Under the pieces are notes generated by a model. The model was not told the origin of the DNA and searched no databases. It saw only the letters and a program-made list of their open reading frames with translations. The translations under genes and the position numbers were made by a program. Below, one piece after another: positions 921-62,011 of a stretch of 64,000 nt of DNA; the stretch's first letter is position 1, and each line of letters opens with the position of its first letter. This DNA comes from Paludibacteraceae bacterium (GTDB lineage: Bacteria > Bacteroidota > Bacteroidia > Bacteroidales > Paludibacteraceae), in the NCBI GenBank assembly GCA_017464475.1, contig JAFTZQ010000015.1:16091-80090 (forward strand), given 5' to 3'.

Positions 921-2176
921 AATTTCTGACCGTTTAACGAGAACGTTTGACCGTTCCGAATGATTACAAGTTGGCCGTTGCGCAGGACTATGGTAGCAGC
1001 CTCACCCCGACCCTCCCCTGAAGGGAAGGGAGAATCTATGCCGGTAGGGGTAGCGATGATGCGTAGCGTTGCGGGCATGCCACGGCGGACAGGCGAGTAC
1101 GAAGCACCGCTATTGGCTATTTGGAACCACGCACGGAAGCCTAACATCTTCGCCGATTCGTCTTCTCCGTCCGTAGGCCAGAAGAGTTCGTTACCGCCGC
1201 CTAAGAAGAGGTTAAGGTGCTGCTCCCCGTCGGTGGCATCGCCGATGTGCGTCTTGCCGTAAAAACCGTGGTAGGTTACTCCTGTACCGTTCGTGGTCTC
1301 GGCGGTGTTGTCATCGTCCCAACCGTCTATGTCCGTGAAGTCCATACGCGTGATCACTTCGCCGGTATTGTTCCATTGGATCAGGTAGGGCACCCCTGCC
1401 TCGAGGCGGTTGGTGTTCACCTTCGTGATGTCAAAGACCAGCGTTCCATTCTCCACAGCAGCGTCGGTGAAGGTATAGACCTCTACGTTGTCTCCGCCAA
1501 GGGGCGAGGCTGCCAAGTCGGATACATTGAACGGCAAGGTCAGGGTATTGAAACACCCTGCCTTGCGAAGCGTCCGGAAGAGCGTGACAGAGGTGAGGGA
1601 CGTACTGCGGTAATCGTTGATTTTCGCCTCCGTATTGCTCAGCTCATCGCTCTCGTCAAGGAATTGACAATCTGTCAGTACCGTATTTTCGTTATAGCTG
1701 TTCCAGTTGGTCTGGTCTCTATAGGTACCGAGCGCAGGGACACAGATATGCAGACTGGTGTGGCATTGGGTAAAAGCATCCGTGCCCAGGTCCGGTGCAT
1801 AATACGGTCGGCAGAGGACGTGTTGAAGCGCCGTACAAGCGTAGAATGCATACGCACCGATGTTAGTCACCGTAGGCGGGATAACCACATTATTGAGTGA
1901 CGTGCATCCTTCAAAAGCATAGGAACCAATCTCCGTCAGGTTATCAGGGAAGATAACCGCTGTGATATTCGTACAGTCCTTAAACGCCTGCGAATAAATC
2001 GTCGCCGGTTGGGTGGGGTCGGGCGATGTCAGAACAAGCGTAGTGCTATTCATCGCGTAATCCAAGTTGTCGCCGTATGGCGGATCACTCGCGAAAGCCG
2101 TACTTACTGCCCCAACGAGCAGGGCAGTAAGTAGCAGTTGATTAAAGTTTCTTACCTGTAACATCATATTTTTCAT
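917..2176 (-). CDS. BspA-like leucine-rich-repeat secreted protein
   Basis: The 419-residue product has a signal peptide (cleavage after about residue 29, AFA), then three to four LRR_5 (BspA/TpLRR) repeats at about residues 55-135 of the type FxxCTxLxxVxIPxxVTxIGxxAF. A long middle region of unknown fold follows, and the protein ends with a short tail (LVIIRNGQTFSLNGQKL) that also ends two other large secreted proteins in this window. It is probably cell-surface exposed. Its start overlaps the stop of the 3246-residue gene by 35 bases (an ATG at 2167 or 2164 would shorten the overlap), so the two are translationally coupled. Near the C-terminus the residues SPFPSGEGRGEA come from a GC-rich palindromic insert and separate the body from the tail. 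Confidence 0.85.
   Translation of the reverse strand: MKNMMLQVRNFNQLLLTALLVGAVSTAFASDPPYGDNLDYAMNSTTLVLTSPDPTQPATIYSQAFKDCTNITAVIFPDNLTEIGSYAFEGCTSLNNVVIPPTVTNIGAYAFYACTALQHVLCRPYYAPDLGTDAFTQCHTSLHICVPALGTYRDQTNWNSYNENTVLTDCQFLDESDELSNTEAKINDYRSTSLTSVTLFRTLRKAGCFNTLTLPFNVSDLAASPLGGDNVEVYTFTDAAVENGTLVFDITKVNTNRLEAGVPYLIQWNNTGEVITRMDFTDIDGWDDDNTAETTNGTGVTYHGFYGKTHIGDATDGEQHLNLFLGGGNELFWPTDGEDESAKMLGFRAWFQIANSGASYSPVRRGMPATLRIIATPTGIDSPFPSGEGRGEAATIVLRNGQLVIIRNGQTFSLNGQKL
1001..1032. repeat. GC palindromic insert, copy 1 (in LRR gene)
   Basis: Core CCCTCCCCTGAAGGGAAGGG preceded by CTCACCCCGA. In frame; read as SPFPSGEGRGEA on the minus strand. Confidence 0.75.
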
Positions 2177-21656: not shown

Positions 21657-22727
21657 ATGTTTTGCAAAGATATACAGAGCGCATTATCGCCAATTTTGAG
21701 TCATTATGATCCGGATCAGGTCGTATGGATCATGGACGAGCACGTGCGTAGTTTTTCGTTGTTTTCTCGTGGTAGCTCCGTGGTTGTTCCGTGGTATGAA
21801 TCCATTTCAGAGGACGACAAATCGCTCCAAACGGTAGAGCGGATTTGGGATTTGTTGCTGGAGAAAGGCATTACACGCCGCGGTCTGCTGGTCGCCGTCG
21901 GAGGAGGTGTATTGACCGACGTAGCGGGTTTTGCCGCAGCTACCTACAGACGCGGGATCGACTGGGTGGCGGTTCCGACTACTTTGCTGGCGATGGTGGA
22001 CGCAAGCACGGGAGGCAAGACCGGGATCAATTACAAGGGGATGAAGAATATGATCGGTGCGTTCTATCCGCCGGTGGAGACCATTATATGGTCCGGGTGG
22101 CTGGAGACCCTGCCGGCGAAGGAGATGCTGAGCGGATTCGGAGAGATGCTGAAAACGGGACTAGTAACCCCACCCGCCCTCCCCTCAAGGGAGGAGAATG
22201 CTTCACTATGGGAGGCGTTGATGCGTTATGACTTGGACACCATGCCAATAGAGAGCCTGACACCGCTGATCAAGGCATGTGTGGAAGCGAAGGAGCGGAT
22301 AGTAGCAGCAGACCCGAAAGAGGAAGGACTGCGGAAGGTTTTGAATTTCGGGCACACGTTCGGGCACGCATTGGAGGAAGCCCCCCTTGGTCCCCCCCTG
22401 GAGGGGGGAAAAAAGGAGAGGATTCCTCATGGCTATGCTGTGCTCTATGGCATGATAGCGGAGTTGTATCTGAGCGTCGTCAAACTCGGTTGCCCGAGAG
22501 AACCGCTGCAGCAGTTGACGCAGATGGTCATTCATTATTACGGCAAGCCGGAGTGCAAATGTTCCGACCGAGGCAAGTTGATTGAATTGATGAAGCAGGA
22601 CAAAAAGAACGAGCATGCAGGAGAGATCAACTGCACGCTCATTCGCGGTATAGGTGAACCGGTGATAAACCAAGTGATCACAGAGGCGGAAGCCGAGGAG
22701 GCTTGGGAGTACCTGTTCAGTCTTTAG
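21657..22727 (+). CDS. aroB: 3-dehydroquinate synthase
   Basis: The 356-residue enzyme makes 3-dehydroquinate from DAHP, the second step of the shikimate pathway, with NAD+ and a divalent metal. Visible signatures are GGGVLTDVAGFAA, PTTLLAMVDASTGGKTGIN and the metal-site histidines in FGHTFGHALE. Two GC palindromic inserts interrupt the family sequence: TPPALPSREEN at about residue 171 and PLGPPLEGGKK at about 243, directly after the FGHTFGHALEE metal motif. Both keep the frame. The gene is convergent with phoH and overlaps it by 11 bases. Confidence 0.95.
   Translation: MFCKDIQSALSPILSHYDPDQVVWIMDEHVRSFSLFSRGSSVVVPWYESISEDDKSLQTVERIWDLLLEKGITRRGLLVAVGGGVLTDVAGFAAATYRRGIDWVAVPTTLLAMVDASTGGKTGINYKGMKNMIGAFYPPVETIIWSGWLETLPAKEMLSGFGEMLKTGLVTPPALPSREENASLWEALMRYDLDTMPIESLTPLIKACVEAKERIVAADPKEEGLRKVLNFGHTFGHALEEAPLGPPLEGGKKERIPHGYAVLYGMIAELYLSVVKLGCPREPLQQLTQMVIHYYGKPECKCSDRGKLIELMKQDKKNEHAGEINCTLIRGIGEPVINQVITEAEAEEAWEYLFSL
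22166..22197. repeat. GC palindromic insert, copy 2 (in aroB)
   Basis: AACCCCACCCGCCCTCCCCT followed by CAAGGGAGGAG; encodes TPPALPSREE. Confidence 0.85.
22380..22412. repeat. GC palindromic insert, copy 3 (in aroB)
   Basis: Variant CCCCCCTTGGTCCCCCCCTG followed by GAGGGGGG; encodes APLGPPLEGGKK. Confidence 0.75.
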
Positions 22728-23649: not shown

Positions 23650-24055
23650 TCACATAAATTGCCTGTATTCCATTGTATAACAATAGGTGAGGCACGTTAA
23701 GTTTTCTATTATATGTTAATGCTTGGTCAAGCGTTTTTTGGGTAAGGGGCACCGTCTCTGCCTTACATTCGATGAGCATGAGAGGAACAACCCCACCCTT
23801 GCCCTCCCCACAAGGGAGGGAAGTCTTAGCATAGACGACTGCGTCACACCGCTGCTTAATTGAGAATTGAGAATTGACAATTGACAATTTCTCCAGCGGC
23901 ACTTCTACCGCAATAAGCGAAGCGGGATAGTCCAGTTGCTCCACCAGATGGTGAAGCAACTGTTGCCTGACCCACTCTTCGGGTGTTAGTCGCACCCAAC
24001 GGTGACGCCATTCGCAGAATATCTGCTCCTTATTTTGGTTTATGCGGGTGCGCAT
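23588..24055 (-). CDS. HsdR N-terminal-domain protein with two repeat inserts
   Basis: The 155-residue product matches the small Bacteroidales family with a type I restriction HsdR N-terminal nuclease-like domain. Visible family parts are RWVRLTPEEWVRQQLLHHLV, RCDAVVYAK, LMLIECKAE (the PD-(D/E)xK-like strand) and TLDQALTYNRKLNVPHLLLYNG. Between them sit two foreign segments: KLSIVNSQFSIKQ from heptad repeats and TSLPCGEGKGGVV from a GC palindromic insert. Thus about 25 of 155 residues come from repeats. It lies between glnS (32 bases) and phoH (62-base overlap). There are no hsdM or hsdS genes nearby, so this is not a restriction system. Confidence 0.8.
   Translation of the reverse strand: MRTRINQNKEQIFCEWRHRWVRLTPEEWVRQQLLHHLVEQLDYPASLIAVEVPLEKLSIVNSQFSIKQRCDAVVYAKTSLPCGEGKGGVVPLMLIECKAETVPLTQKTLDQALTYNRKLNVPHLLLYNGIQAIYVNGNDHQSSGCPRYADLLRGQ
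23787..23821. repeat. GC palindromic insert, copy 4 (in HsdR-N gene)
   Basis: AACCCCACCCTTGCCCTCCC, then CACAAGGGAGGG. Almost identical to the glnS copy. Encodes SLPCGEGKGGVV. Confidence 0.85.
23858..23890. repeat. Short tandem repeat GAGAATT type (in HsdR-N gene)
   Basis: Units GAGAATT GAGAATT GACAATT GACAATT, in frame, encoding LSIVNSQFSI. Confidence 0.8.
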
Positions 24056-24069: not shown

Positions 24070-24097
24070 AGTCTTCTAGTTTACTAGTTATTTTAGG
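24070..24097. repeat. CTAG-type repeat at the glnS 3' end
   Basis: CTAGTCTTCTAGTTTACTAG: three CTAG steps 8-9 bases apart, starting in the spacer and reaching the glnS stop codon. Confidence 0.55.
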
Positions 24098-25860
24098 TAA
24101 TTATCCTTGAGCGAGCAGGTGCGGTTGAGTACCAGCTTCTCTGCTGTAGTGTCCGGATCCACGACGAAGTAACCTTGTTTCAAGAGCTGGTAGTGGTTTT
24201 CCTGCTCTATTCCGTCTTTGAGTACCGGTTCGTGCATCTCGCTGCGGAGGGAACCTTCCACTTTGGCGGTAACGACCTTGAGACTATCAGGGTTGAGGAG
24301 GTCACGGAAGTCTCCTTCTTCAGCAGAGGGGTTCTCTACCGCGAAGAGACGGTCGTAGAGACGTACCTCGGCATCGATGCAGGAGTTGCACTCCACCCAG
24401 TTGATGGTTGCTTTGGTCTTACGGTTGCCTCCTTCTGTTCCCGATTTGGAGTTGGGATCATAAGTCGCATAAACGGTGGTAATATTGCCGTTTTCGTCCT
24501 TCTCGCAGCCGGTAGCCTGGATGATATAAGAAGCTTTAAGTCGCACTTCGCGTCCGCCGGGAGAGAGGCGATAGAACTTATTGTCCGCTTCCTCCAGGAA
24601 ATCGCCGCGTTCTATCCAGAGTTCCTTTCCGAACTTCATTTCGCGCGTACCGAGTTCCTCATGCCCGTCGATGTTTTCCGCTATCAGGGTTTCACAAACC
24701 CCACCCTGGCCCTCCCCACAAGGGAGGGAAGAAGGATAATTAGTAATGACCAGTTTGACGGGATCGAAGATGGCACACACACGCGGAGCGGTCTCTTTGA
24801 GGTCTTCGCGGATGGTGTGCTCCAGCAGCCCTTGGTCGATCATTCCTTCCACCTTGGTGTAACCGATCTTGTCCATGAACGTACGGATGGCGGAAGGTGT
24901 GTATCCGCGCCGGCGGAGACCACAGACGGTCGGCATTCGCGGATCGTCCCAACCTGCTACGAGACCCTCTTTGACGAGCTGGAGCATTTTGCGTTTGGAC
25001 ATAACGGTATAGGTAATGTTCAGACGGTTGAACTCCCGCTGTTTCGGACGGTAGTCCGGTCCGTAAGGTGAGAGTCCGGCGAAGTTCTCTCCTGTGATTT
25101 GATCCAAGAAATAGTCATAGAGCGGACGGTGTACCTCAAATTCGAGTGTACAAATGGAGTGGGTCACACCCTCGAAATAGTCGCTCTGTCCGTGTGCGAA
25201 ATCGTACATCGGATAGACGTTCCAGCGGCGACCCGTACGGTGGTGCGGATGGGAGGTGATGATTCGATACATGATCGGGTCGCGGAAGTGCATGTTGGGG
25301 TTCGCCATGTCTATTTTGGCACGAAGAACCATCTTTCCTTCCTCTATCTCGCCGGCTTGCATAGCTTCAAAGAGACGCAGGTTCTCTTCGATCGGACGGT
25401 CGCGATAAGGGGACGCTACACCGGGTTCGGTCGGCGTACCTTTCTGCTCGGCTATCTGTTCCGCGGTCTGCTCATCGACATAGGCCTTGCCCTCTTTGAT
25501 GAAGCGGATGGCAAGTTCATAGAGTTGCTCGAAATAGTCGGAGGCATAGAAGATCTTGCCCCATTTGAATCCGAGCCACGCGATGTCGCGCTCGATAGTC
25601 TCTACGTACTCGGTGTCCTCTTTGGCAGGGTTGGTGTCGTCGAAACGGAGGTTGCAGACGCCGTTGTATTTCTCTGCGATGCCGAAGTCCATGCAGATGG
25701 CTTTGACGTGGCCGATGTGCAGGTATCCGTTCGGCTCCGGCGGGAAACGGGTCTGAATACGTCCGTTGTTCACTCCCTCTGCGAGGTCTTTTTCCACGAT
25801 CTGCTCAATAAAATTGAGACTACGAACCTCGGGGTCATTTTCACATTTATTCATTTCCAT
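24088..25860 (-). CDS. glnS: Glutaminyl-tRNA synthetase
   Basis: The 590-residue class I enzyme charges tRNA-Gln. The HIGH region is PEPNGYLHIGH (41-51) and the KMSKS-like loop is VMSKRK at about 286-291; LRFDDTNP and YDFAHGQSDYFEGVTHS are family landmarks of the catalytic core. In the anticodon-binding beta-barrel region a GC palindromic insert adds SSLPCGEGQGGVC at about residues 378-390 between VKLVITNYP and ETLIAENIDG. Start could be Met1 or Met3. It follows the 141-residue gene by 36 bases. Confidence 0.95.
   Translation of the reverse strand: MEMNKCENDPEVRSLNFIEQIVEKDLAEGVNNGRIQTRFPPEPNGYLHIGHVKAICMDFGIAEKYNGVCNLRFDDTNPAKEDTEYVETIERDIAWLGFKWGKIFYASDYFEQLYELAIRFIKEGKAYVDEQTAEQIAEQKGTPTEPGVASPYRDRPIEENLRLFEAMQAGEIEEGKMVLRAKIDMANPNMHFRDPIMYRIITSHPHHRTGRRWNVYPMYDFAHGQSDYFEGVTHSICTLEFEVHRPLYDYFLDQITGENFAGLSPYGPDYRPKQREFNRLNITYTVMSKRKMLQLVKEGLVAGWDDPRMPTVCGLRRRGYTPSAIRTFMDKIGYTKVEGMIDQGLLEHTIREDLKETAPRVCAIFDPVKLVITNYPSSLPCGEGQGGVCETLIAENIDGHEELGTREMKFGKELWIERGDFLEEADNKFYRLSPGGREVRLKASYIIQATGCEKDENGNITTVYATYDPNSKSGTEGGNRKTKATINWVECNSCIDAEVRLYDRLFAVENPSAEEGDFRDLLNPDSLKVVTAKVEGSLRSEMHEPVLKDGIEQENHYQLLKQGYFVVDPDTTAEKLVLNRTCSLKDNYLK
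24696..24729. repeat. GC palindromic insert, copy 5 (in glnS)
   Basis: AAACCCCACCCTGGCCCTCC, then CCACAAGGGAGGG; encodes SSLPCGEGQGGV. Confidence 0.85.
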
Positions 25861-28076: not shown

Positions 28077-29096
28077 TTAGTGTTTGCCGCTTTGTTTGAA
28101 GCGTACAACGGCGCGTCGCCAGACAGAGGCGTCGATGGCAGGAGTGCCCATGTACGTGCCGGGTGCTTTGACTGTGTTCGGTACACCGGATTGCGCGCCA
28201 AAGACACAGTGGTCGGGTATCTCGATGTGTCCGGCTATGCCGACTTGTCCCGCGAGGACACAATGTGCGCCGATCTTGGAACTGCCGGCTATACCAACCT
28301 GTGCGCAGAGGAAAGAAGACGCGCCGACCTCGACGTTATGCCCGATCTGGACAAGATTGTCCAGTTTGGCGTTGGTGCGAATGACGGTCGAACCCATCAT
28401 AGCGCGGTCGATCGTAGTGTTGGCTCCGATCTCCACATCGTCTTCTATGATGACATTTCCTATCTGCGGGATCTTCCGGTTGATCCCCTGTGCGTCGGGT
28501 TCGAAACCGAAGCCGTCCGAGCCGACAACTGCTCCGGCATGGAGGATACAGTTCGCTCCAATGAGGCAGTTATAATAGACTTTGACGCCGGCATAGAGGA
28601 CGGTATTGTCGCCAATCGTCACATTATCGCCGATATAGACATGCGGATAGATCTGCACGCCTTTGCCGAGACGTACGTTCCGCCCGATGTATGCGAATGC
28701 GCCGATATACGCATCGGATGGGATCTGTACACCTTCGGCGACGAAGGACGGCTGTTCAACGCCTTTGCGGGGCGGGTTCATCGCTTTGGAGACGATGGAG
28801 AGAAGTTGCGCCATCGCTCCGCGTGCGTTAGGAACGAGGATGAAAGCGCCGGAAACCCCACTCCGCCCCTCCCCACAAGGGAGGGAGTTCGGATCAGAGA
28901 TGAGGGATTGGGTGATGAGGACCACGCCGGCTTTGGTGTTAGCGAGGAAAGGGAGATATTTCTCCTCCGTGACGAAGGAGAGATGCTTGGGTTCCGCAGC
29001 CTCGATGGGCGCTACGTCGCAGACCATCGAAGACGCGTTTCCGTATAGTTCTCCGCCCAAGAGAGCGGCTATTTGCTGTGCACTAAACTGAATCAT
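28077..29096 (-). CDS. lpxD: UDP-3-O-(3-hydroxyacyl)glucosamine N-acyltransferase
   Basis: The 339-residue enzyme adds the second acyl chain in lipid A synthesis. It has the N-terminal uridine-binding domain (FSAQQIAALLGGELYGN), then a hexapeptide beta-helix (about 110-300) with VGSDGFGFEPD and the catalytic-His region NLVQIGHNVEVG. A GC palindromic insert adds NSLPCGEGRSGVSG at about 70-83, between ITQSLISDP and AFILVPNARGAM, in the N-terminal domain. It is followed by lpxC and lpxA on the same transcript. Confidence 0.95.
   Translation of the reverse strand: MIQFSAQQIAALLGGELYGNASSMVCDVAPIEAAEPKHLSFVTEEKYLPFLANTKAGVVLITQSLISDPNSLPCGEGRSGVSGAFILVPNARGAMAQLLSIVSKAMNPPRKGVEQPSFVAEGVQIPSDAYIGAFAYIGRNVRLGKGVQIYPHVYIGDNVTIGDNTVLYAGVKVYYNCLIGANCILHAGAVVGSDGFGFEPDAQGINRKIPQIGNVIIEDDVEIGANTTIDRAMMGSTVIRTNAKLDNLVQIGHNVEVGASSFLCAQVGIAGSSKIGAHCVLAGQVGIAGHIEIPDHCVFGAQSGVPNTVKAPGTYMGTPAIDASVWRRAVVRFKQSGKH
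28852..28887. repeat. GC palindromic insert, copy 6 (in lpxD)
   Basis: GAAACCCCACTCCGCCCCTC, then CCCACAAGGGAGGGAG; encodes NSLPCGEGRSGVS. Confidence 0.85.
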
Positions 29097-37755: not shown

Positions 37756-38547
37756 ATGGACGAATTCTTCTCAAGAAGCGAAGCATTATTGGGTGCAGAA
37801 GCGATGGAAGCGCTTCGGACAAAACGGGTGATCCTGTTCGGCGTCGGAGGTGTGGGTTCATGGTGCGCAGAGGCATTAGTTCGGACGGGGTTAACGCATC
37901 TGACTATCGTCGATGGCGACACCGTGCAGCCTTCTAATGTCAACCGGCAGCTGCCGGCGACAAGGGAGACTTTGGGGCGTCCCAAAGTGGAGGTGCTACG
38001 CGAACGGCTCTTGACCATCAATCCCGAAGCGGAGATAGTGGCGATTCATAGAATGTATAACCCCACCCTAATTTGTTCTACGACCGTCCACTGGACGCTT
38101 GATCGGGCAAAGCCCTTCACCCGCACAAGGGAGGGAGAAAAAGAGAAGACATACGATTTTCGAATAGAGGAATATGACTATGTGATTGATGCGATAGACA
38201 GTGTGGCGGCAAAGACAGACCTTATTTTATGCGCGACGCGCACGCGAGGGGTGAAGATATTCAGCTCCATGGGTGCCGCACTCCGCTTCGATCCGACCAA
38301 AGTGACGACAGGCGAACTGATGTCCATCCAAGGTGACGCACTCGCCAGAGCTGTCCGTGCACGCATGAAGAAAATAGGTCTTCATCCGTACAAAAAAGTG
38401 AAGTGCGTCTATTCGACGGGAAATGGACAACCCCTCCCGACCTCCCCTCAGGGGGAGGAGAAAATCAAGGGCAGTCTGATGCAAGTCACCGCCGTCTTCG
38501 GCTGCACGTTAGCAAGCATGGTGATAGAGGATATGAGGAAAAGGTAA
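37756..38547 (+). CDS. tcdA: tRNA threonylcarbamoyladenosine dehydratase
   Basis: From the ATG at 37756 the product is 263 residues of the E1/ThiF-like family that cyclises t6A37 in tRNA to ct6A using ATP. The nucleotide-binding motif VILFGVGGVGSWCAEALVRTG lies at about 26-46; NVNRQLPAT, DYVIDAIDSVAAK and KVKCVYSTG are family marks. Two repeat inserts are present: a long composite one of about 77 bases (about residues 102-127, with PTLICSTTVHWTLDRAKPF) and a short one (PLPTSPQGEEK at about 225-235). The start is set by the promoter, which overlaps the first 14 codons of the longer ORF. Confidence 0.9.
   Translation: MDEFFSRSEALLGAEAMEALRTKRVILFGVGGVGSWCAEALVRTGLTHLTIVDGDTVQPSNVNRQLPATRETLGRPKVEVLRERLLTINPEAEIVAIHRMYNPTLICSTTVHWTLDRAKPFTRTREGEKEKTYDFRIEEYDYVIDAIDSVAAKTDLILCATRTRGVKIFSSMGAALRFDPTKVTTGELMSIQGDALARAVRARMKKIGLHPYKKVKCVYSTGNGQPLPTSPQGEEKIKGSLMQVTAVFGCTLASMVIEDMRKR
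38059..38135. repeat. GC palindromic insert, copy 7, long composite form (in tcdA)
   Basis: Ends match other copies (AACCCCACCC at the left, CACAAGGGAGGGAG at the right) but a 45-base middle with GTCCACTGGAC palindrome is present instead of the short core. Confidence 0.7.
38428..38460. repeat. GC palindromic insert, copy 8 (in tcdA)
   Basis: CAACCCCTCCCGACCTCCCC, then TCAGGGGGAGGAG; encodes PLPTSPQGEE. Confidence 0.85.
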
Positions 38548-43200: not shown

Positions 43201-44468
43201 ATACAATTCAACAAATTCCTGCATATGGAAGTACTATTTTCAGAGGAAATGTACATTATGTAGGCGGAGCTACGACAATCTATTTATATTCTCCAAGTAG
43301 CGGAGTAAATATCTATGCCATTCAAGTTTCTTATGGTTCTACTCCGACGCCGACAGAACCAATTATGGTAACATGCGCAGAGGCTGCACAAATAGCATCT
43401 TCTTTGTCTCATAATACCCAAACATCCGAAACATATATTGTAACCGGATATATTACAGAAACCGATGGTGTTGTTTCGCGAGGACAACAGATATTCTGGA
43501 TGGCAGATACCCAAAATGGCGGTAAGGTATTCGAGAGTTATTGGGGTAATGTGACAGAAAAAATGCTTGTGGGAGACAAAGTATCAGTAGAAGGAAAGAT
43601 TATGAGATACAACTCTATCTATGAAATTAAGAATGGAGACGTGACCTTAATAGAAAGAGATAGTCCATCACAATCATTCACCGTCACCGTTTCATCTGCC
43701 AATAGTTCGATGGGTACCGTTTCAGGAGGAGGCACATACGAAGAAGGACAGACAGCAACCGTTACAGCCACTCCTAAGAGCGGATATAAATTCACACGCT
43801 GGAGCAATGGTAGTACAGCTAATCCTTATTCGTTTACGGTAGCAAGTGATGTTTCGCTTACTGCTTATTTTGAACAATCAACAACACCGCAATCAGAATC
43901 TAAGTTCTGGAATATAAGTGATGCTGCGTTTAATTCTCTCGGCACAATCACATCTCAAACGACAATCAATGGTTTAACTATTCATGCCACGGCTAACAAA
44001 CCGATAGTGGTAGATGCTGACGCAAGAGAAATAAATGGTTATTCTTTCACTCACCGCCTCAAGTTCGGTGGAACAGGAGCAAGTAACGCACGAATGCTCT
44101 CCTTTAGAGTGGATGGTGATTGCGATATTGATATTTACTTAATGTCAGCTTCCGGAAGTGCAGACCGTACACTTAATGTAGATAAAGGTAGTTTTGGAAA
44201 TACAATTCAACAAATTCCGGCATATGGAAGCACTATCTCCGAAGGAAATGTACACTATGCAGGTGGTGCAACTACTATATATCTATATTCTCCCAGCAGT
44301 GGTGTAAATATCTATGCAATCCGTGTAACATATGGAGGAAAAGAGGAAGGAATTGACGACTTATATGTACAACCTCAAGAGGAAGCAAGCAAAATCCTTC
44401 ATAACGGTCAAATCTTCATCCTCCGTGGTGACAAGACCTATACCCTTCAAGGGCAGGAGGTGAAGTAA
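40197..44468 (+). CDS. BspA-like LRR surface protein, 1423 residues
   Basis: A secreted protein with signal peptide (residues 1-22) and about 18 LRR_5 repeats of 23 residues between about 75 and 505, each of the form FxxCSGLTSITIPNSVTSIG. After a cap (YVPCGTSETYRTAAGWSSY) come four InlB-B/List-Bact-type repeats with WSDGNKDNPR at about 550-820, then two nearly identical 218-residue modules (from about 829 and 1162) that each hold one InlB-type repeat and a beta-sandwich. Between these is a segment resembling an OB-like extracellular domain (CAEAAQIASSLSHNTQTSETYI). The tail ILRGDKTYTLQGQEVK matches the tails of the LRR and giant proteins at 1-12 kb. BspA-like proteins bind host matrix or bacterial partners. 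Lower GC than neighbours suggests transfer or different selection. Confidence 0.88.
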   Translation: MKTKIFTLLLALAASVGTLFASNTKVGDIWYDFNSSTQTASVTYRGSDYNSYDNEYSGSVVIPSSVTYSGKIYRVTSIGANAFSGCSGLTSITIGNSVTSIGSSAFRGCSGLTTVTIPNSVTSIGDGAFYNCSGLTSITIGNSVTSIAEGTFFNCGGLTHVDIPNSVKSIGNEAFFNCIGLTYVTIPNSVKSIGGGAFFECKGLNSIEIPNSVKSIGNSAFHDCSGLTSITIGNSVTSIGNSAFYDCSGLTSVTIPNSVKSIGDGAFSNCSGLTYVAIPNSVTSIGSSAFNGCSGLTSIVVEDGNVVYDSRNDCNAIIKTATNTLIAGCQNTIIPNSVTSIGDNAFNGCSGLTSIEIPNSVTSIGDWAFQNCSGLTSVMIPISVTSIGKSAFEYCSSLTSFEIPNSITSIAEGTFFKCSGLTSVTIPISVKSIGDGAFAYCSSLISVTIGNSVTSIGMSAFYDCSGLTYVTIPNNVTSIGSSAFRGCSGLTTVTIEAETPPTLGSSIENVFDSRYLTSIYVPCGTSETYRTAAGWSSYASKIKEQSLPYAITTNALNGTISIDSICLDITLTAIPNEGYYFTQWSDGNKDNPRSFVLTQDTTFTAEFSNQYRINITCNEEYGTIIGENGTFEYLSEHTYEAVPNSGYHFTQWSDGNKDNPRTIILTQDTSLTAEFSKQYSIHVSCNEEQGSINGENGMFDYLSEHTYEAVPNSGYYFVKWSDGNKDNPRTIVLTQDTSLTAIFDILYNVSVLSDDPTMGSASFSDLLETQSLNYGQYPIGTNLIAKAIPNQGYKFSHWSDGLSANPRGITVQSDINLKAYFELEQNSYTVTVSSANSSMGTVSGGGTYEEGQTATVTATPKSGYKFTRWSNGSTTNPYSFTVTRDVSLTAYFEQIPASQSESKFWNISDAAFNSLGTITSQTTINGLTIHATANKPIVVDADAREINGYSFTHRLKFGGTGASNARMLSFRVDGDCDIDIYLMSASGSADRTLNVDKGSFGNTIQQIPAYGSTIFRGNVHYVGGATTIYLYSPSSGVNIYAIQVSYGSTPTPTEPIMVTCAEAAQIASSLSHNTQTSETYIVTGYITETDGVVSRGQQIFWMADTQNGGKVFESYWGNVTEKMLVGDKVSVEGKIMRYNSIYEIKNGDVTLIERDSPSQSFTVTVSSANSSMGTVSGGGTYEEGQTATVTATPKSGYKFTRWSNGSTANPYSFTVASDVSLTAYFEQSTTPQSESKFWNISDAAFNSLGTITSQTTINGLTIHATANKPIVVDADAREINGYSFTHRLKFGGTGASNARMLSFRVDGDCDIDIYLMSASGSADRTLNVDKGSFGNTIQQIPAYGSTISEGNVHYAGGATTIYLYSPSSGVNIYAIRVTYGGKEEGIDDLYVQPQEEASKILHNGQIFILRGDKTYTLQGQEVK
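42681..43335 (+). repeat. Direct repeat copy 1 in the BspA-like gene
   Basis: About 655 bases, nearly identical to 43680-44334, offset exactly 999 bases (333 codons). Confidence 0.9.
43680..44334 (+). repeat. Direct repeat copy 2 in the BspA-like gene
   Basis: Second copy of the module; a few silent or conservative changes, mostly near the 3' end. Confidence 0.9.
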
Positions 44469-45648: not shown

Positions 45649-47430
45649 TTAGAGACCGAGGGATTTCTTGATCTCCGGAACGCGGGCTTCGGCTTCGGCG
45701 GTGCAACGCTCGTAGTCAGCACCGGTGAATGGTTTGCCGGATTTAACCGGAATCTCGAAATAGAACTTGATCTTCGGCTCGGTACCCGAGGGACGAACAG
45801 AGACTTTCAAGCCGCCCTCGGTGAAGTACTGGAGTACATTGGAAGTCGCGTTCAAAGGCATTTCTATTTTCTCATTTACCCATTTACCATTTTCCAATTT
45901 TTTCTGTTCGAGGAGTTTGAAGTCTTTGATCTTAACCACTTTCTCGCCTGCAATCTCCTGCGGCGGGTTCTCGCGATAGTTCTTCATCATAGCCTGGATC
46001 TCCTCTGCACCCGTCTTACCCGGACGAACGACGTTGATGGTCGTCTCGCGCTGGAAGCCGTAGTCCTCGTATATCTTGAGGAGGTAGTCATAGAGGGTCA
46101 TGCCGTTATCCTTGGCATACGCAGCGATCTCGCAGATAAGGCAGATAGCCGAAGGCGAACATTTATCGCGAACGGCGTCATACGGCAGGAAGCCGAAGGA
46201 CTCTTCGCCGCCACCGATATATTTGCGCTTGCCTTCCCACATACGGATACGGTTGGCAATCCATTTGAAGCCGGTGTATTCATCGGTGAGGGTAACGCCC
46301 TGCGCGTCGGCAATCTTGCGGATGAGCTCGGAGGTAACGATGGTCTTGACGATGAACATATCATCGCGGAACTTGCCCAGACGCTTCATGTTGTTGATGA
46401 TGTAGTAATGGTACATGATGTTGGTCTGGTTACCATTGATGATGACCCACTCGCCTTTGTCGTTACGGCAAACGATAGCGATACGGTCTGCATCCGGGTC
46501 GGAAGCGATCACGAGGTCAGCGCCCAGCTTGGTGCCCAGTTTCATACCGAGGGTCATTGCCTCAGCGTTCTCCGGGTTCGGGGAAACGACGGTCGGGAAG
46601 TTACCATCAATGACCATCTGCTCGGGCACCACGTGGATGTTTTGGAAGCCCCATGAGCGCAGACAGAGCGGCACGATCTGGCGTCCGGCTCCGTGCATCG
46701 GGGTATAGACGATATTGAGGTCTTTCTGGCGCAGGATGGTCTCTTGGTCGATCATAACAGACTTAACCGCCATCATGTAGTCGTAGTCCATCTCGCCGCC
46801 GATGATCTCAATGAGGTCTTTGTCAGCCTCCCATTTGACATCCGCGAGGGTTACTTTGTTGACTTCGTCAATAATTCCTTGGTCATGCGGCTGGAGCACC
46901 TGCGAACCATCCTCCCAATAAGCCTTGTAGCCGTTGTACTCTTTGGGGTTGTGAGAAGCGGTGACGTTGACACCGCCTTGGCATTTGAGTTGACGGATAG
47001 CGAAGGAGACCTCCGGCGTCGGACGCAGGGACTCAAAGAGATAGACCTTGATTCCGTTAGCAGAGAAGATATTGGCTACGGTCTCCGCGAACATACGTCC
47101 GTTATTACGGCAGTCGTGACCTACCACCACTGCTACACGACCGTTCTGGACATGCTCAAAGCCGCCTTGTTTCTGTACCTTGAGGAGGTAGTTAGCATAG
47201 CCCTGGGTAGCCATGGCTACGATGTACTTGTTCATTCGGTTGGTACCCGGTCCCATGATACCGCGCAATCCGCCGGTGCCAAATTCGAGGGTACGATAGA
47301 AAGCGTCGATGAGTTCGGTTTTGTCCTCCGCCTCCATCATAGCTTTCACTTGTGCGCGGGTCTCCGCGTCGAACGGTTCGCGAGTCCAAACCTCAGCGAC
47401 CGACATCACTTGTTTCAATTCTTCGTTCAT
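45649..47430 (-). CDS. Phosphoglucomutase/phosphomannomutase family enzyme
   Basis: The 593-residue alpha-D-phosphohexomutase has the phosphoserine loop TASHNPKEYNG (about 158-168), the metal loop ASDPDADR (about 307-314), the sugar loop GGEESFGFL (about 408-416) and the phosphate loop RPSGTEPKIKFYFE near the C-terminus. It interconverts glucose-1- and glucose-6-phosphate or the pentose/mannose equivalents; long forms like this are usually phosphoglucomutase. A CATTTAC-type repeat tract encodes KKLENGKWVNEKIE at about 510-523. It is the last gene of an hflX-hpt-pgm unit. Confidence 0.9.
   Translation of the reverse strand: MNEELKQVMSVAEVWTREPFDAETRAQVKAMMEAEDKTELIDAFYRTLEFGTGGLRGIMGPGTNRMNKYIVAMATQGYANYLLKVQKQGGFEHVQNGRVAVVVGHDCRNNGRMFAETVANIFSANGIKVYLFESLRPTPEVSFAIRQLKCQGGVNVTASHNPKEYNGYKAYWEDGSQVLQPHDQGIIDEVNKVTLADVKWEADKDLIEIIGGEMDYDYMMAVKSVMIDQETILRQKDLNIVYTPMHGAGRQIVPLCLRSWGFQNIHVVPEQMVIDGNFPTVVSPNPENAEAMTLGMKLGTKLGADLVIASDPDADRIAIVCRNDKGEWVIINGNQTNIMYHYYIINNMKRLGKFRDDMFIVKTIVTSELIRKIADAQGVTLTDEYTGFKWIANRIRMWEGKRKYIGGGEESFGFLPYDAVRDKCSPSAICLICEIAAYAKDNGMTLYDYLLKIYEDYGFQRETTINVVRPGKTGAEEIQAMMKNYRENPPQEIAGEKVVKIKDFKLLEQKKLENGKWVNEKIEMPLNATSNVLQYFTEGGLKVSVRPSGTEPKIKFYFEIPVKSGKPFTGADYERCTAEAEARVPEIKKSLGL
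45862..45904. repeat. Short tandem repeat CATTTAC type (in pgm)
   Basis: Units CTCATTTACC CATTTACCAT TTTCC, in frame; similar tract in miaB. Confidence 0.65.
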
Positions 47431-48061: not shown

Positions 48062-49417
48062 TTACTCCTCGTAGTTTTGGAAGAGGAAGTCGTTATACGG
48101 ATAGCGCTGCACATGGATCGCCTTGATGCGGTCATACATGAGCGCGCGCAGTGAGTCTATATTATCTTTGTTTTTCGCCGAAATGAAGATGCAGTCTTCA
48201 CCCAAGCGCGCCATCCATGTCTTTTGGAGGTCAGCGAGCGAGAGGTTCTCACGTTTGACGGGCGTGAGGTCATCTTCTTCTTTCGGCGTATAGGTGAAAT
48301 TATCTATCTTATTGAAGACCACAATACGGGGGATTGAAACCCCACCCGACCTCCCCACAAGGGAGGAGATGTGTTTGCTGCCGGACTCCCTCCCTTGAGG
48401 GGAGGGTTGGGGAGAGGTTATGATTTCATTGAGGGTCTGCTCAACGACCTCGTACTGCTCCTCGAAATTCGGATGGGAAATATCCACGACATGGATGAGG
48501 AGGTCTGCTTCGCGCACTTCGTCCAGCGTCGATTTGAAGGACTCAACGAGGTGGTGAGGCAGCTTGCGAATAAAGCCGACTGTGTCGGAGAGAAGGAAAG
48601 GCAGGTTCTCGATCGTCACCTTGCGTACCGTAGTATCCAAGGTAGCGAAGAGTTTGTTCTCCGCAAAGACATCCGATTTGGAGAGGAGGTTCATGAGGGT
48701 CGATTTGCCCACATTGGTGTATCCGACGAGCGCGACGCGCACCATTTTGCCGCGATGCTGGCGCTGGGTCGCCATCTGTTTGTCAATGGTCTTAAGTTGC
48801 TCACGGAGGAGCGCAATCCGCTGCCCGATCACCCGTTTATCCGCCTCTATCTGGGTCTCACCCATACCGCGGTTGGTGCCTCCACCTCCGCGCTGCCTGT
48901 CCAAGTGGGACCACATACGGGTCAGACGGGGCAACATATATTGAAGGTGCGCCATCTCGACCTGGGTCTTGGCATAAGAGGTCTGCGCACGCTGGAGGAA
49001 GATCTCCAGAATCAAGATCGTGCGGTCAATGACCCGGACGGGAGAAGAAACCCCACCCGACCTCCCCTCAGGGGAGGGGACTTTTTTGTTTAGTTCTTTT
49101 TCCAAGTTGCGTATCTGGCGCGGAGATAACTCATCATCGAAAATAACGACGTCAATGACTGTCTCCCTCCCTTGAGGGGAGGGCTGGGGAGAGGTTACTA
49201 TAAACTGCCTGATCTCCTCCAGTTTGCCCTCTCCGACATAGGTAGAGGTGTTAGGTTGGTCGAGGCGTTGGGTAAAACGCTTCACCGGCACGATCCCATG
49301 CGTGTCAGCAAGAAATGCCAGCTCGTCCAAGTACTCTTTGGTACGATCCTCCGGTTGAGCGGGAGTAATCAATCCCACCAAAACGGCATGCTCTATATAT
49401 GGTTTAATCTCAATCAC
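48062..49417 (-). CDS. hflX: GTPase HflX with four repeat inserts
   Basis: The 451-residue GTPase splits or rescues stalled ribosomes. It has the HflX N-terminal domain (GIVPVKRFTQRLDQPNTSTYVGEGK), the coiled helices with GGGGTNRGMGETQIEADKR, G1 GYTNVGKST, G3 DTVGF and G4 FNKID. Four GC palindromic inserts are in frame: TSPQPSPQGRET (about 75-86), VPSPEGRSGGVSSP (about 113-126) and two back-to-back ones giving TSPQPSPQGRES and SSLVGRSGGVS (about 335-360), just before the strand leading to NKID. Together they make about 50 residues. It has its own promoter and heads the hflX-hpt-pgm unit. Confidence 0.95.
   Translation of the reverse strand: MIEIKPYIEHAVLVGLITPAQPEDRTKEYLDELAFLADTHGIVPVKRFTQRLDQPNTSTYVGEGKLEEIRQFIVTSPQPSPQGRETVIDVVIFDDELSPRQIRNLEKELNKKVPSPEGRSGGVSSPVRVIDRTILILEIFLQRAQTSYAKTQVEMAHLQYMLPRLTRMWSHLDRQRGGGGTNRGMGETQIEADKRVIGQRIALLREQLKTIDKQMATQRQHRGKMVRVALVGYTNVGKSTLMNLLSKSDVFAENKLFATLDTTVRKVTIENLPFLLSDTVGFIRKLPHHLVESFKSTLDEVREADLLIHVVDISHPNFEEQYEVVEQTLNEIITSPQPSPQGRESGSKHISSLVGRSGGVSIPRIVVFNKIDNFTYTPKEEDDLTPVKRENLSLADLQKTWMARLGEDCIFISAKNKDNIDSLRALMYDRIKAIHVQRYPYNDFLFQNYEE
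48337..48368. repeat. GC palindromic insert, copy 9 (in hflX)
   Basis: AAACCCCACCCGACCTCCCC, then ACAAGGGAGGAG. Opposite orientation to copy 10, which lies 16 bases away. Confidence 0.85.
48384..48420. repeat. GC palindromic insert, copy 10 (in hflX)
   Basis: GACTCCCTCCCTTGAGGGGA, then GGGTTGGGGAGAGG; encodes TSPQPSPQGRES on the minus strand. Confidence 0.85.
49048..49080. repeat. GC palindromic insert, copy 11 (in hflX)
   Basis: AAACCCCACCCGACCTCCCC, then TCAGGGGAGGGG; encodes VPSPEGRSGGVS. Confidence 0.85.
49161..49196. repeat. GC palindromic insert, copy 12 (in hflX)
   Basis: GTCTCCCTCCCTTGAGGGGA, then GGGCTGGGGAGAGG; inverted relative to copy 11; encodes TSPQPSPQGRET. Confidence 0.85.
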
Positions 49418-49984: not shown

Positions 49985-50644
49985 CTATCGTTTTTCTGCT
50001 CCGATTGTGGTGAAATCACCATGTCCGGGATAGACGCGTGTGTCGTCCGGCAGAGTAAACAGACGTCGGAGAGAATCGATCAGTTGCCCCATATCTCCGC
50101 CGGGCAAGTCGGTTCTGCCATACCCCATCCGAAATAGCGTATCGCCGGAGAGCAGCACTTTCTCGTCCTGCCAATAGAGACAGATCGAACCGGGCGTATG
50201 TCCGGGAGTGGGGAGAATCTGAACATCTGAAGATTTGAACATTTGAAGATTTGAAGATTTGATGGGTTCTATGGGGAAGGGTTGGGGCGTAGCACGGATA
50301 CCGAAGAGGTTATATTGCGCTTGCATGGCTTGCGCCATCGGTATATCCGCCTCGTGCATCAGGACAGGAGTATGCCACTGCTCCGTAGCCCACGCGGCAC
50401 CCCATAGGTGGTCCAGATGACCATGGGTGGCGAGGATTAAAACCTCTCCCCGACCCTCTCCACAAGAGAGGGAGTTTATGTAGTCCTTCAAAAGCTGACG
50501 CTCGTACTCATTAGAGCAGGCGGGGTCGATGAGCAGAATTGACGCCTCTCCCCGACCCTCCCCCGCAGAGAGGGAGGAAACAACATAGGTATTCGTTCCG
50601 AAAGAACCAAATTCAAAGGATTTTATCTCCAACATTCCTGACAT
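49985..50644 (-). CDS. MBL-fold hydrolase (glyoxalase II-like) with three repeat inserts
   Basis: The 219-residue metallo-beta-lactamase-fold protein has the metal motif THGHLDHLWG, then PGHTPGS, GDTLF and a final PGHGDFT. Such small proteins are glyoxalase II-like thioesterases, whose substrate is not certain. Three foreign segments are in frame: SAGEGRGEASIL (about 25-36) and SLSCGEGRGEVL (about 58-69), both from GC palindromes, and SSNLQMFKSSDVQIL from an 8-bp repeat tract (about 126-140). Without them the protein would be about 180 residues. The start at 50644 overlaps the radical SAM gene; Met4 (50635) is an alternative. Confidence 0.85.
   Translation of the reverse strand: MSGMLEIKSFEFGSFGTNTYVVSSLSAGEGRGEASILLIDPACSNEYERQLLKDYINSLSCGEGRGEVLILATHGHLDHLWGAAWATEQWHTPVLMHEADIPMAQAMQAQYNLFGIRATPQPFPIEPIKSSNLQMFKSSDVQILPTPGHTPGSICLYWQDEKVLLSGDTLFRMGYGRTDLPGGDMGQLIDSLRRLFTLPDDTRVYPGHGDFTTIGAEKR
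50216..50262. repeat. 8-bp GAAGATTT-type tandem repeat (in MBL gene)
   Basis: Units GAACATCT GAAGATTT GAACATTT GAAGATTT GAAGATTT, in frame. Confidence 0.9.
50440..50474. repeat. GC palindromic insert, copy 13 (in MBL gene)
   Basis: AAACCTCTCCCCGACCCTCT, then CCACAAGAGAGGGAG; encodes NSLSCGEGRGEV directly before the strand carrying the metal motif. Confidence 0.85.
50544..50577. repeat. GC palindromic insert, copy 14 (in MBL gene)
   Basis: GCCTCTCCCCGACCCTCCCC, then CGCAGAGAGGGAG; encodes SLSAGEGRGEAS. Confidence 0.85.
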
Positions 50645-51606
50645 ATTTGAGGGGTTTCACGTAGTGCAGCCCGACGAAAAGCGAGTGCTTTCTCATTACT
50701 AAAGAGTTCGCGCAGGGGTGCGTTCATTATATTTCCATACGCGTACGCGTGCGCCTTGTCATAGCAGCAAGGCAGGACCTTGCCCTCCGTAGTGATCACT
50801 ACTCCGCTCCACACCCGCAGACATCCGCGGTGTAGCGGACGGCGATGGTACGAGGAGGAATTTGCTGTTGCAATATAGCGGCTGTAACGAGGATCGGAAG
50901 GCATGAGCGGATGCCCGTGGGTGTAGTTATAGAGTTGCGCAGTTTTGAAGGTCAGCGTATCCGCTCCGAGCGATTTATATTGGCGCTCAAAATCTTGCCA
51001 CTCCTGTTCGTTCGTACGGAGGCGGAGAACTTGCAGTTCGATAGTGATAGTCGCACGCAGACGCCTTTTAGCTGCACGTAACATCCGCAATGCTTCTTTC
51101 GTCTTCGCGAGACTTCCACCGGCACGATAGGCATTATAACTCTCTTCGGTGAGCCCGTCCATGGAAACGATAATACGATCCAGTCCTGCTCCGACCAACG
51201 CTTCTGCCATCGTCTCCGTCATAGCCTGGGCATTAGTAGAGACGATGGTATAGAGTCCTTCCGAATGAGCCTGCGAAATCATTTGCGGCAGGTTCGGATT
51301 GAGCAGAGGTTCGCCTTGGAAATAGAACTGAACGGTATGAGCATACCTCTTGATCTCGTGCAGCGTCCTCTGCCACACCTCACTACTCATAAAAGGAGGT
51401 CTGACGGCTGAGTTCTGACGGCTGACTCCCCCTTGCCCTACCGGACATTCGGGACAACGGAGTTGGCAGACCGAAGCCGGTTCGACCGAGACAAACATCG
51501 GTCTATGTGCAATATGCACCGAGCCCAAAAGACTCAGTGCATAACTCGCATAGCAACGCATCGCATTGGCAACACGCGAGAAGATATATCGGTTAATGAA
51601 TTGCAA
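50623..51606 (-). CDS. Radical SAM/SPASM-domain protein
   Basis: The 327-residue enzyme has the radical SAM cluster motif CQLRCPEC (Cys47, Cys51, Cys54) and a C-terminal SPASM-like cysteine set (HRGCLRVWSGVVITTEGKVL, PCCYDKAHAYAYGN, ICQECW). This layout is found in peptide- and carbohydrate-modifying radical enzymes, the substrate here being unknown. A heptad-type tract encodes GVSRQNSAVRPPF right after the cluster loop (about 60-72). It overlaps rpiB by 14 bases and the MBL gene by 22 bases. Confidence 0.88.
   Translation of the reverse strand: MQFINRYIFSRVANAMRCYASYALSLLGSVHIAHRPMFVSVEPASVCQLRCPECPVGQGGVSRQNSAVRPPFMSSEVWQRTLHEIKRYAHTVQFYFQGEPLLNPNLPQMISQAHSEGLYTIVSTNAQAMTETMAEALVGAGLDRIIVSMDGLTEESYNAYRAGGSLAKTKEALRMLRAAKRRLRATITIELQVLRLRTNEQEWQDFERQYKSLGADTLTFKTAQLYNYTHGHPLMPSDPRYSRYIATANSSSYHRRPLHRGCLRVWSGVVITTEGKVLPCCYDKAHAYAYGNIMNAPLRELFSNEKALAFRRAALRETPQICQECWR
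51399..51427. repeat. Short tandem repeat CTGACGG type (in radical SAM gene)
   Basis: CTGACGG CTGAGTT CTGACGG CTGACTC, in frame; the reverse complement of the GTCAG heptads in ssb, recG and GT4. Confidence 0.8.
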
Positions 51607-58256: not shown

Positions 58257-58261
58257 TTTTC

Positions 58262-58318: not shown

Positions 58319-58392
58319 CGGGGAGTGGCGCAGCCCGGTAGCGCAACGGTCTGGGGGACCGGAGGTCGCGTGTTCGAATCACGTCTCCCCGA
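58319..58392 (+). tRNA. tRNA-Pro (anticodon GGG)
   Basis: A 74-base tRNA: acceptor CGGGGAG / CTCCCCG, D-arm GGCGCAGCCCGGTAGCGC, anticodon loop CTGGGGG with GGG, T-arm CGTGTTCGAATCACG. CCA not encoded. The stem above the loop has one A-G mismatch at its far end. Confidence 0.93.
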
Positions 58393-58446
58393 CAAAAAGG
58401 ATGGCTCTTTGCCGTCCTTTTTGGTTAGACGGATTCGACCTACGCG
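58373..58446 (+). repeat. Direct repeat, copy 1: tRNA-Pro 3' end plus terminator
   Basis: From TTCGAATCACGTCTCCCCGA of the tRNA through the terminator to GGATTCGACCTACG; recurs at 58488. Confidence 0.9.
58394..58422 (+). terminator. Terminator of tRNA-Pro
   Basis: AAAAAGGATGGC-TCTTT-GCCGTCCTTTTT. Confidence 0.85.
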
Positions 58447-58487
58447 TGTTCTTAGCCCAAGGGCACGATTATTGCCAGAGGCAATTT

Positions 58488-58560
58488 TCGAATCACGTCT
58501 CCCCGACAAAAAGGATGGCTTACTGCCGTCCTTTTTGGTTAGACGGATTCGACCTACGGC
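58488..58560 (+). repeat. Direct repeat, copy 2: tRNA 3' remnant and second terminator
   Basis: About 72 bases, identical to copy 1 except for a few bases in the terminator loop; ends at the porW stop codon. The 41-base interval 58447-58487 holds no gene. Confidence 0.9.
58509..58537 (+). terminator. Second terminator copy
   Basis: AAAAAGGATGGC-TTACT-GCCGTCCTTTTT; loop differs from the first copy. It can also end porW/sprE transcription on the minus strand. Confidence 0.75.
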
Positions 58561-61261: not shown

Positions 61262-62011
61262 TTAAGATTTCAGCCCCTTGACATGGCTCTGCGCCGCAAT
61301 GAACTCCTTCAGGTAATAGGGTTCATAATAAGCCAGTTCCTTATTCCTTTCACCTTTCAACTTCTTCCTTTCCACAATCGCACCCATATACTGCGCCTCC
61401 GGCACGATGCCTGGGACGAAATGCCAATTGGGGGACGTCAGTACGGATTGGCATTTAGCGGCTCCGTCACCGAAATAATAGACAGCCAACCTCTCCCCGT
61501 CCCTCTCCTCAAGAGAGGGCGACAAAATACTATCCTCGCTCTCTACCACAACCGCCTGTGCCCTATTCACCTTATGTTCTTGGTTACTTGGTACTTGGTC
61601 ACTTTGTACTTCCGTATAGACTTCCATCCGCCGCGCATCGATCATAGGAAGGAGGATGGGTGATTGTGAATTGTGAATTGTAAATTGTAAATTGTGAAAT
61701 TTAAAATTCTCCACGAGTATGTCCAGTGTCGGAATAGGGATCAGCGGGACATCGAGTCCGTAGCACAGCCCTTTGGCGGTCGAGGTGCCGATACGCAGTC
61801 CGGTATAGCTGCCCGGTCCTTCGGAGAGGGCTACTGCTTCTATAGCGAGACCTTGCTCCCGTGCGAACGCGAGCAGTTCCTCTATATAACGGGGAAGCAA
61901 CCGCGCATGGTTGCCACCCTCAAGGGATATACACTGCTTAACCGGCACACCATCTTTACAGATCGCCGCCGAACAAACAGAAGTACTTGTTTCTATACAC
62001 AACACCGTCAT
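61262..62011 (-). CDS. tsaB: tRNA t6A synthesis protein TsaB with three repeat inserts
   Basis: From the ATG at 62011 (MTVLCIETSTSVCSAAI) the product is 249 residues. TsaB is the non-catalytic partner of TsaD in making threonylcarbamoyladenosine at position 37 of tRNA. LSEGPGSYTGLRIGTSTAKGL and MIDARRMEVYTEV are family marks. Three foreign pieces are in frame: FHNLQFTIHNSQSPIL (heptads), VQSDQVPSNQEHKVN (CTTTGTA-type) and SPSLEERDGERLAV (GC palindrome). The window also has tcdA, which modifies the same base further. Confidence 0.92.
   Translation of the reverse strand: MTVLCIETSTSVCSAAICKDGVPVKQCISLEGGNHARLLPRYIEELLAFAREQGLAIEAVALSEGPGSYTGLRIGTSTAKGLCYGLDVPLIPIPTLDILVENFKFHNLQFTIHNSQSPILLPMIDARRMEVYTEVQSDQVPSNQEHKVNRAQAVVVESEDSILSPSLEERDGERLAVYYFGDGAAKCQSVLTSPNWHFVPGIVPEAQYMGAIVERKKLKGERNKELAYYEPYYLKEFIAAQSHVKGLKS
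61488..61519. repeat. GC palindromic insert, copy 15 (in tsaB)
   Basis: AACCTCTCCCCGTCCCTCTC, then CTCAAGAGAGGG; encodes SPSLEERDGERL. Confidence 0.85.
61575..61612. repeat. Short tandem repeat CTTGGTA/CTTTGTA type (in tsaB)
   Basis: CTTGGTTA CTTGGTA CTTGGTCA CTTTGTA, in frame. Confidence 0.75.
61661..61700. repeat. Short tandem repeat GTGAATT/GTAAATT type (in tsaB)
   Basis: GTGAATT GTGAATT GTAAATT GTAAATT GTGAAAT, in frame. Confidence 0.9.

Follow-up and report, generated by a model that had tools for sequence, protein, structure and literature searches.

The window analysed here, 64,000 nt of a gut Paludibacteraceae bacterium (positions 16091-80090 of contig 36 of its genome, G000, a metagenome-assembled genome (MAG) of 1.9 Mb in 36 contigs judged 71% complete), raises the question of how a short palindromic element of about 34 nt comes to lie, over and over, in frame inside genes for conserved proteins. 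The first-pass annotation of this DNA had listed 15 places of the element, all said to keep the frame of a coding region, and a direct reading of the window bears this out, as nine open reading frames (ORFs), each with a Pfam match, contain all of them (Table 1). The hosts match LRR_5, dehydroquinate synthase (aroB, 2 places), HSDR_N, GlnRS, LpxD, ThiF (2 places), HflX (4 places), the metallo-beta-lactamase fold (2 places) and the TsaD family (tsaB), several of them being housekeeping genes. The Pfam match spans both sides of an insert in aroB, HSDR_N, GlnRS, LpxD, ThiF, the metallo-beta-lactamase protein and part of HflX, and the insert falls outside the matched stretch in the LRR_5 protein, in tsaB and in another part of HflX. 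We think it probable that the element is a Bacteroidales version of the triplex-type repeats, filtered for an open frame and for permissive protein loops, and that it behaves like the Rickettsia palindromic elements (RPEs), a likeness of behaviour that implies no claim of kinship. According to this model, the C-block of the element would lie on its hairpin as a third strand; the repeat would multiply within the species, presumably moving as DNA hairpins or pairs, by a mobilising machinery that was not found here; its insertions would be shared out between genes and spacers about as the lengths of these predict; and purifying selection would then keep those gene copies that leave the frame open and occupy a loop, turn or linker able to take about a dozen extra residues, while copies that close the frame or hit buried sites would be purged.

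The unit is composed of a C-block AACCCC(A/T)CCCC, two variable nucleotides, a stem CCCTCCC, a loop CTCAA, the complementary stem GGGAGGG and a final AG. Its core, CCCTCCCCNCAAGGGAGGG, has 101 matches with at most two mismatches in the whole 1.9-Mb genome, versus 3 for the reversed pattern. A strict profile, which accepts the core with at most two mismatches, or with at most four if at least 7 of the 10 prefix letters agree, recovers 12 of the 15 window places; those at 22380, 38059 and 50544, listed with them by the first-pass annotation, are divergent or composite, that at 22380 being a poly-C hairpin that resembles the element in build but not in its letters and that at 38059 a prefix followed by another repeat, TTCTACGACCGTCCACNGGACGC. 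Copies in G000 were surveyed over 429 kb (the window plus 20 stretches picked around matches), where 96 candidate places were reduced to 86 copies by dropping ten with three to four mismatches and a weak prefix. Among these 86, 65 are of a long form with a 3-nt gap, 13 of a short form with a 1-nt gap and 8 have other gaps.

Variation among the 65 long copies speaks for the fold. Their stem variants are compensated (CCCTCCC/GGGAGGG in 41, CCCTCTC/GAGAGGG in 12 and CTCTCCC/GGGAGAG in 5), and the C-block changes along with them: all five copies with the CTCTCCC stem carry the C-block AACCCCTCTCC, the relevant T of which is seen in 1 of the 60 others, and position 4 of the C-block is T in 12 of the 13 copies that have T at stem position 5. 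When the C-block is set against the 3' purine arm in parallel register, the mean is 6.12 of 7 contacts (C.G or T.A; z=7.0, with none of 2000 permutations as high), while the antiparallel register gives no covariation in these copies (z=-1.9). For a pyrimidine block to serve as the third strand of a triplex, its contacts must be parallel; read on the other strand, this is the purine motif, which accepts the common A at position 6. Triads were scored on the long copies, 49 of which have 7/7 purine-motif triads, 58 a perfect 7-bp stem and 46 both. The 41 copies of a deltaproteobacterial MAG (L040) reach 8.93 of 9 triads at the best offset, with z=6.3 for the parallel and z=-5.1 for the antiparallel register; 23 copies from seven other genomes gave z=3.4 and 1.1, with two genomes lacking a match, and their pyrimidine-motif antiparallel score was mildly raised (z=2.2). 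We also considered the C-block as an alternative arm of the stem, that is, a direct-repeat reading, and rejected it because the antiparallel register shows no covariation in either G000 or L040. The stem itself is kept in genes (6.83 of 7 pairs, n=46 long copies) as in spacers (6.55 of 7, n=11), and in an orthologous hflX copy the relative G002 differs from G000 by a paired stem change that preserves all 7 pairs, G021 keeping 6.

The 62 copies inside predicted genes are distributed as same0 16, same1 17, same2 2, opp0 17, opp1 7 and opp2 3, so both orientations are in use. In the consensus, same2 can meet TAA at the TAACC start, opp1 meets TGA at the loop and opp2 can meet TAA or TAG at the far end, and the remaining three frames are free of stops; these hold 50 of the 62 copies (p=1.2e-6) and, among relatives, 17 of 23 in-gene copies (p=0.03). 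Over-representation in one reading frame had been proposed as something to check; the bias seen is to open frames, spread over three of them and over both orientations (16, 17 and 17). The suggestion that the element is tolerated in genes when in frame agrees with this avoidance of stop frames and with the existence of occupied and empty sites. Where a copy does lie in the TGA-prone opp1 frame, its loop base is other than T in 6 of 7 cases, versus 3 of 55 in the other in-gene copies (p=9e-6), and in the seventh the TGA has been removed by other changes; outside genes, a non-T loop base occurs in 5 of 24. Of the 10 copies at gene ends, 7 touch the TAA stop codon of their gene or extend over it. 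Seven predicted genes, in L146, L148, L149, L151, L157, L160 and L162, end in a TAA at the first letters of the element.

Does the element then prefer proteins, as the first-pass annotation had it? The statement that no copies lie in spacers does not extend beyond the window, for in the 429 kb, the genes of which were called by a simple codon-usage finder that missed some, the 86 copies divide into 62 located inside predicted genes, 10 that overlap the end of one and 14 found in spacers (one of the latter, at window position 23802, is actually in the HSDR_N gene that the finder overlooked). With 0.767 expected for random 35-nt windows, 62/86 in the 429 kb amounts to neither preference nor avoidance (p=0.31). 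Many spacer copies had been named beforehand as an outcome that would speak against the proposal, and 14 of 86 goes part of the way. The window by itself is mildly unusual, the chance of 15 out of 15 in genes being between 1% (finder's genes, 0.738 per place) and 8% (missed ORFs added, 0.847), and the larger sample does not uphold it as a coding bias. A sample of 30 loci of 97 matched places in five element-rich relatives yielded 37 distinct places, of which 23 are in genes, 2 partly so and 12 in spacers. By a measure cruder than the gene-finder count, namely location in ORFs of at least 200 aa (90 copies kept after excluding a single locus from soil Bacteroidetes and all copies closer than 400 nt to the end of their locus), the figures are 21/30 for other Bacteroidales (26.1 expected; the set includes members of the window's genus), 4/5 for termite-gut Bacteroidales (4.3 expected) and 20/55 for other phyla (44.0 expected), where genes are thus avoided. 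Ten hand-chosen host proteins from outside the window all have a Pfam match, and among them are DXS, a class II tRNA synthetase, methylmalonyl-CoA mutase, DapB and 4-alpha-glucanotransferase.

Comparison of orthologous positions, which had been proposed as a check, finds both occupied and empty sites, in glnS and in hflX. The glnS element is present in G000 and G002, and a short EGEG-like turn takes its place in the other 20 genus members aligned; it falls at NYQGEGE of the solved GlnRS structure 1o0b, which we take to be the E. coli enzyme. The 43-nt tract over the element that is identical between these two genomes is not exceptional, since a run of 44 nt occurs elsewhere in the gene. In hflX, the tail-to-tail pair is present in G000, G002 and G021 and none was seen in the 27 others among the 30 aligned sequences, several of which have a long loop of other sequence at that site; the copy at 49049 is common to G000 and G018 and lies inside a 56-nt identical tract, the longest in the gene pair (next 31). 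This mosaic occupancy of hflX and glnS is the outcome of loss, independent gain or local recombination. At the HSDR_N site (23789) G002 has a decayed copy and G018 a GC repeat of another kind, and other repeats likewise fill sites in some relatives, as do GTCAGCC units at the same position of aroB in G018. Where DXS of G000 has a long-form copy, that of G034 has a short-form one in the opposite orientation, and in another gene the copies of G000 and G021 occupy one site in different frames. To judge from these alignments, the insertion sites look permissive and repeatedly hit, and the inserted peptides would be tolerated by loops. The host genes are constrained: in a codon test on five gene pairs, the ratio of non-synonymous to synonymous substitution (dN/dS) was 0.05 for glnS between the two occupied species, 0.04 and 0.06 for two hflX pairs and 0.11 for HSDR_N; one of the five pairs, hflX of G000 and G021, has saturated synonymous sites. 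In hflX of G007 (L192), at the site of window 49049, we noticed a hairpin resembling the element, with some 35 nt of additional sequence inserted in its loop; together with the nested copy of G002, this may reflect repeats landing in each other's loops.

Carriage of the element is patchy, and its variants are specific to species. The core with at most one mismatch was found in 21 of 101 genomes examined, the window's own included: 20 of the 61 that belong to the same genus, with between 1 and 54 copies each, and a single one of the 40 that represent other families of the order. A wider contig scan, covering at least 115 stretches, detected the core in Nitrospirae, Deltaproteobacteria, Gastranaerophilales and others as well, where, among the matches listed, copies outside Bacteroidales often have another prefix, CACCCTCCCC, and a longer linker. 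Rfam assigned two tRNAs and nothing else in the window, and among the titles and beginnings of abstracts listed by searches of an open-licence library we recognised no description of the repeat family in Bacteroidales; papers on RPEs, REPs and triplexes came up, and the motif letters yielded nothing of relevance. Among IMG/VR viral contigs, 24 stretches (L252-L275) hold the core pattern, three of them in one 61-kb contig, and contig 28 of G049 has three tandem copies at 18463, 18499 and 18535, spaced by exactly 36 nt (12 codons).

Since the C-block could fold against the hairpin to make a third strand, we place the architecture in the class of the intrastrand-triplex repeats (BoxC/PIT/TM), for which the defining paper (PMC4666352) describes a C-stem, a loop, a G-stem, a 3-nt loop and a G-rich third strand, as well as inverted pairs. 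By sequence, our element has all parts of class II of these motifs, that is, a Y-stem, a loop, an R-stem, a loop and a third strand with purine-motif triads; it shares with them the C-rich stem, short loop, G-rich stem, second loop of about 3 nt and G-rich third strand, and likewise the close inverted pairs, a copy number that is very uneven among close relatives and the lack of a known mobiliser. The idea of a third strand preceded our discovery of that paper, and the covariation tests were run afterwards. According to the same paper, the TM_ECO/BoxC/PIT repeat forms a triplex in vitro, has 23 copies in E. coli K-12, always between genes and with five inverted pairs, and is not found with mobility genes (PMC4666352). 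The two differ in that the stem is 7 nt here and 9 nt in TM_ECO, whose pattern CCCTCNCCC N3-6 GGGNGAGGG N3 GGGNGAGGG had no match with up to one mismatch in the 429 kb, and in that 62 of 86 copies lie inside genes. In this latter respect the element resembles the RPEs as described in PMC10969869, namely palindromic repeats that sit in frame in unrelated protein genes and carry a peptide into the protein, which is what we find here; compared by description, however, RPEs are about 150 bp long and have a conserved peptide, whereas our unit has 34 nt and is used in both orientations and several frames. The first-pass annotation knew of the RPEs as the only comparable case, yet there are others: GTAG/CGTC REPs, hairpins of 20-40 nt that form dimers, include some in frame within genes of Opitutus terrae and Rickettsia conorii (PMC3733652), and the architecture is that of the E. 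coli repeats just discussed. Hairpin size, dimers, some intragenic copies and ends that supply stop codons are common to these REPs and our element, although most REPs are described there as intergenic (PMC3733652). By the features compared, the element belongs neither to TM_ECO proper nor to the tagged REPs. Repeats of the triplex type occur widely and lack an explanation, and those studied best lie between genes; in the lineage described here, many are inside conserved enzymes, at sites that are empty or otherwise filled in close relatives. Such replicated natural insertions offer a way to ask how these repeats move, which fold is selected and how freely protein loops accept foreign peptides.

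Several observations weigh against the triplex-type model. No clean insertion with a target duplication is visible at occupied sites, where, in alignments judged by eye, several native residues have been replaced, and for this reason the insertion itself can only be inferred; set beside miniature inverted-repeat transposable elements, the empty sites differ by replacement, with neither a clean boundary nor a duplication to the eye. No mobilising enzyme was found; in G000, judged 71% complete, PF01797 has no match. Gene calling conditions the frame test in part, for a copy that closes the frame ends the called gene, as the gene-end copies at TAA illustrate (7/10). With respect to the fold, 13 of the 52 copies whose stem has C at position 5 break the rule, carrying T at the matching place of the C-block, a neighbouring, shifted parallel register gives a weaker signal (z=2.4), and copies of one genome are related, so the permutation z-scores are inflated and are not statistics of independent events. 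Finally, Holder et al. report that in vivo footprinting gave them no support for stable triplex formation.

Other explanations have to be considered alongside. Conceivably, the element could be a REP/REPIN moved in trans by a RAYT (Y1 HUH) transposase, with the tail-to-tail pair as the mobile unit. Paired inverted hairpins recall REPINs, and close pairs are indeed over-represented in G000 (8 neighbour gaps below 150 nt versus 2.6 expected, 8 being the largest value in 2000 randomisations), six of them tail-to-tail and two tandem; moreover, 8 of 20 carrier genomes have a PF01797 match. Yet PF01797 has no match in G000, G021, G034, G041 and G047, which are five of the six genomes with most copies, and G018, the remaining one, has a single weak match of 23.9 bits; it is as common in non-carriers (14/41 versus 8/20, p=0.78, among 61 genus genomes, most matches being weak), and the consensus AACCCC(A/T)CCCC..AG has no GTAG or CGTC tag beside the stem, which together make this origin unlikely. 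An element that targets genes, as the earlier annotation proposed, would fit the occupancy in the window and the avoidance of genes by the core in other phyla and not here, the more so as random insertion followed by strong purging in genes should leave an excess in spacers; given that the in-gene share shows no excess over random windows, we regard targeting as improbable. That the repeats reflect chance low complexity or an artefact of assembly could be suspected of a single MAG in 36 contigs, but this is already refuted by other genomes, in which the element occupies corresponding sites (glnS of G002, hflX of G018), and the excess over the reversed pattern speaks against it too; we give it practically no credence.

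It could also be argued that the inserted peptide or the messenger RNA hairpin has been domesticated and now serves the host gene. The stems are, after all, kept in genes as in spacers, with a paired change in hflX of G002, and the linker of same0 copies is AA or AG (giving a Gln codon) in 11/11 cases as compared with 4/16 in same1 (p=1.8e-4), though this was one of several tests looked at. Occupied sites nevertheless differ between species, DXS and one other gene have a copy in another orientation or frame at the same site, and in some relatives unrelated repeats stand at these positions, so that we consider domestication rather improbable, if a shade less so than gene targeting. A more tentative proposal, to which we accord a minor chance, is that of a selfish DNA hairpin adapted to life in genes: its unit would be free of stops in most frames, it would use coding and spacer sites alike, its DNA fold would be kept in genes by paired changes, and it would allow host proteins to turn over surface loops, with DNA fold and peptide under selection at the same time.

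Table 1. Places of the element and of related hairpins in the window (positions 1 to 64,000)
Feature	Position	Strand	Remarks
Element, long form (AGCCTCACCCC..)	998..1031	+	In LRR_5 protein ORF 917-2176 (-); opp1 frame, without TGA
Element, short form	22166..22198	+	In aroB ORF 21657-22727 (+); six aligned relatives empty or with other sequences there
Poly-C hairpin of similar build, other letters, atypical	22381..22408	+	Outside strict profile
Element, long form, loop base A	23789..23822	+	In HSDR_N ORF 23588-24055 (-)
Element, long form, loop base A	24697..24730	+	In glnS ORF 24088-25860 (-); peptide SLPCGEGQGGV
Element, long form, loop base A	28854..28887	+	In lpxD ORF 28077-29096 (-)
Composite, prefix AACCCCACCC plus other repeat family	38059..38110	+	In ThiF ORF 37714-38547 (+)
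Element, short form	38429..38461	+	In ThiF ORF 37714-38547 (+)
Element, short form, half of tail-to-tail pair	48338..48370	+	In hflX ORF 48062-49417 (-)
Element, long form, second half of hflX pair	48386..48419	-	Reads ITSPQPSPQGRE
Element, short form	49049..49081	+	In hflX; copy common to G018
Element, long form	49163..49196	-	Variable loop of hflX; in G002, related copy with another repeat nested inside
Element, long form, stem CCCTCTC/GAGAGGG	50441..50474	+	In metallo-beta-lactamase-fold ORF 49985-50644 (-)
Divergent copy	50544..50577	+	Same ORF 49985-50644 as the 50441 copy; outside strict profile
Element, long form, stem CCCTCTC/GAGAGGG	61488..61521	+	In tsaB ORF 61262-62026 (-)

The element is not alone, as several unrelated repeat families lie inside genes of the window. 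Those found in frame inside ORFs are a 7-mer GAATTGA type, an 8-mer ATTTGAAG type, a 14-mer GTCAGCC type and CATTTACC, at 23858-23889, 29610-29669, 61662-61693, 50205-50284, 31192-31227, 33197-33274, 36330-36365, 51400-51432 and 45858-45911; the peptide IVNSQFSI in the HSDR_N protein is one example of what they encode. The second repeat, TTCTACGACCGTCCACNGGACGC, occurs at window positions 38076-38110, in frame in the ThiF gene, as well as in L184 (1740-1762), L158 (16986) and L165 (3583), and is the one nested in the element copy in hflX of G002. Further along, a 1423-aa ORF at 40197-44468 is made of 69-nt and 204-nt tandem units and a 300-nt repeat, 95% alike, and a 72-nt unit that begins with the 3' part of the tRNA-Pro gene at 58319-58393 is present twice (58373-58444 and 58487-58558, 96% alike), the two units being perhaps scars of integration or duplication.

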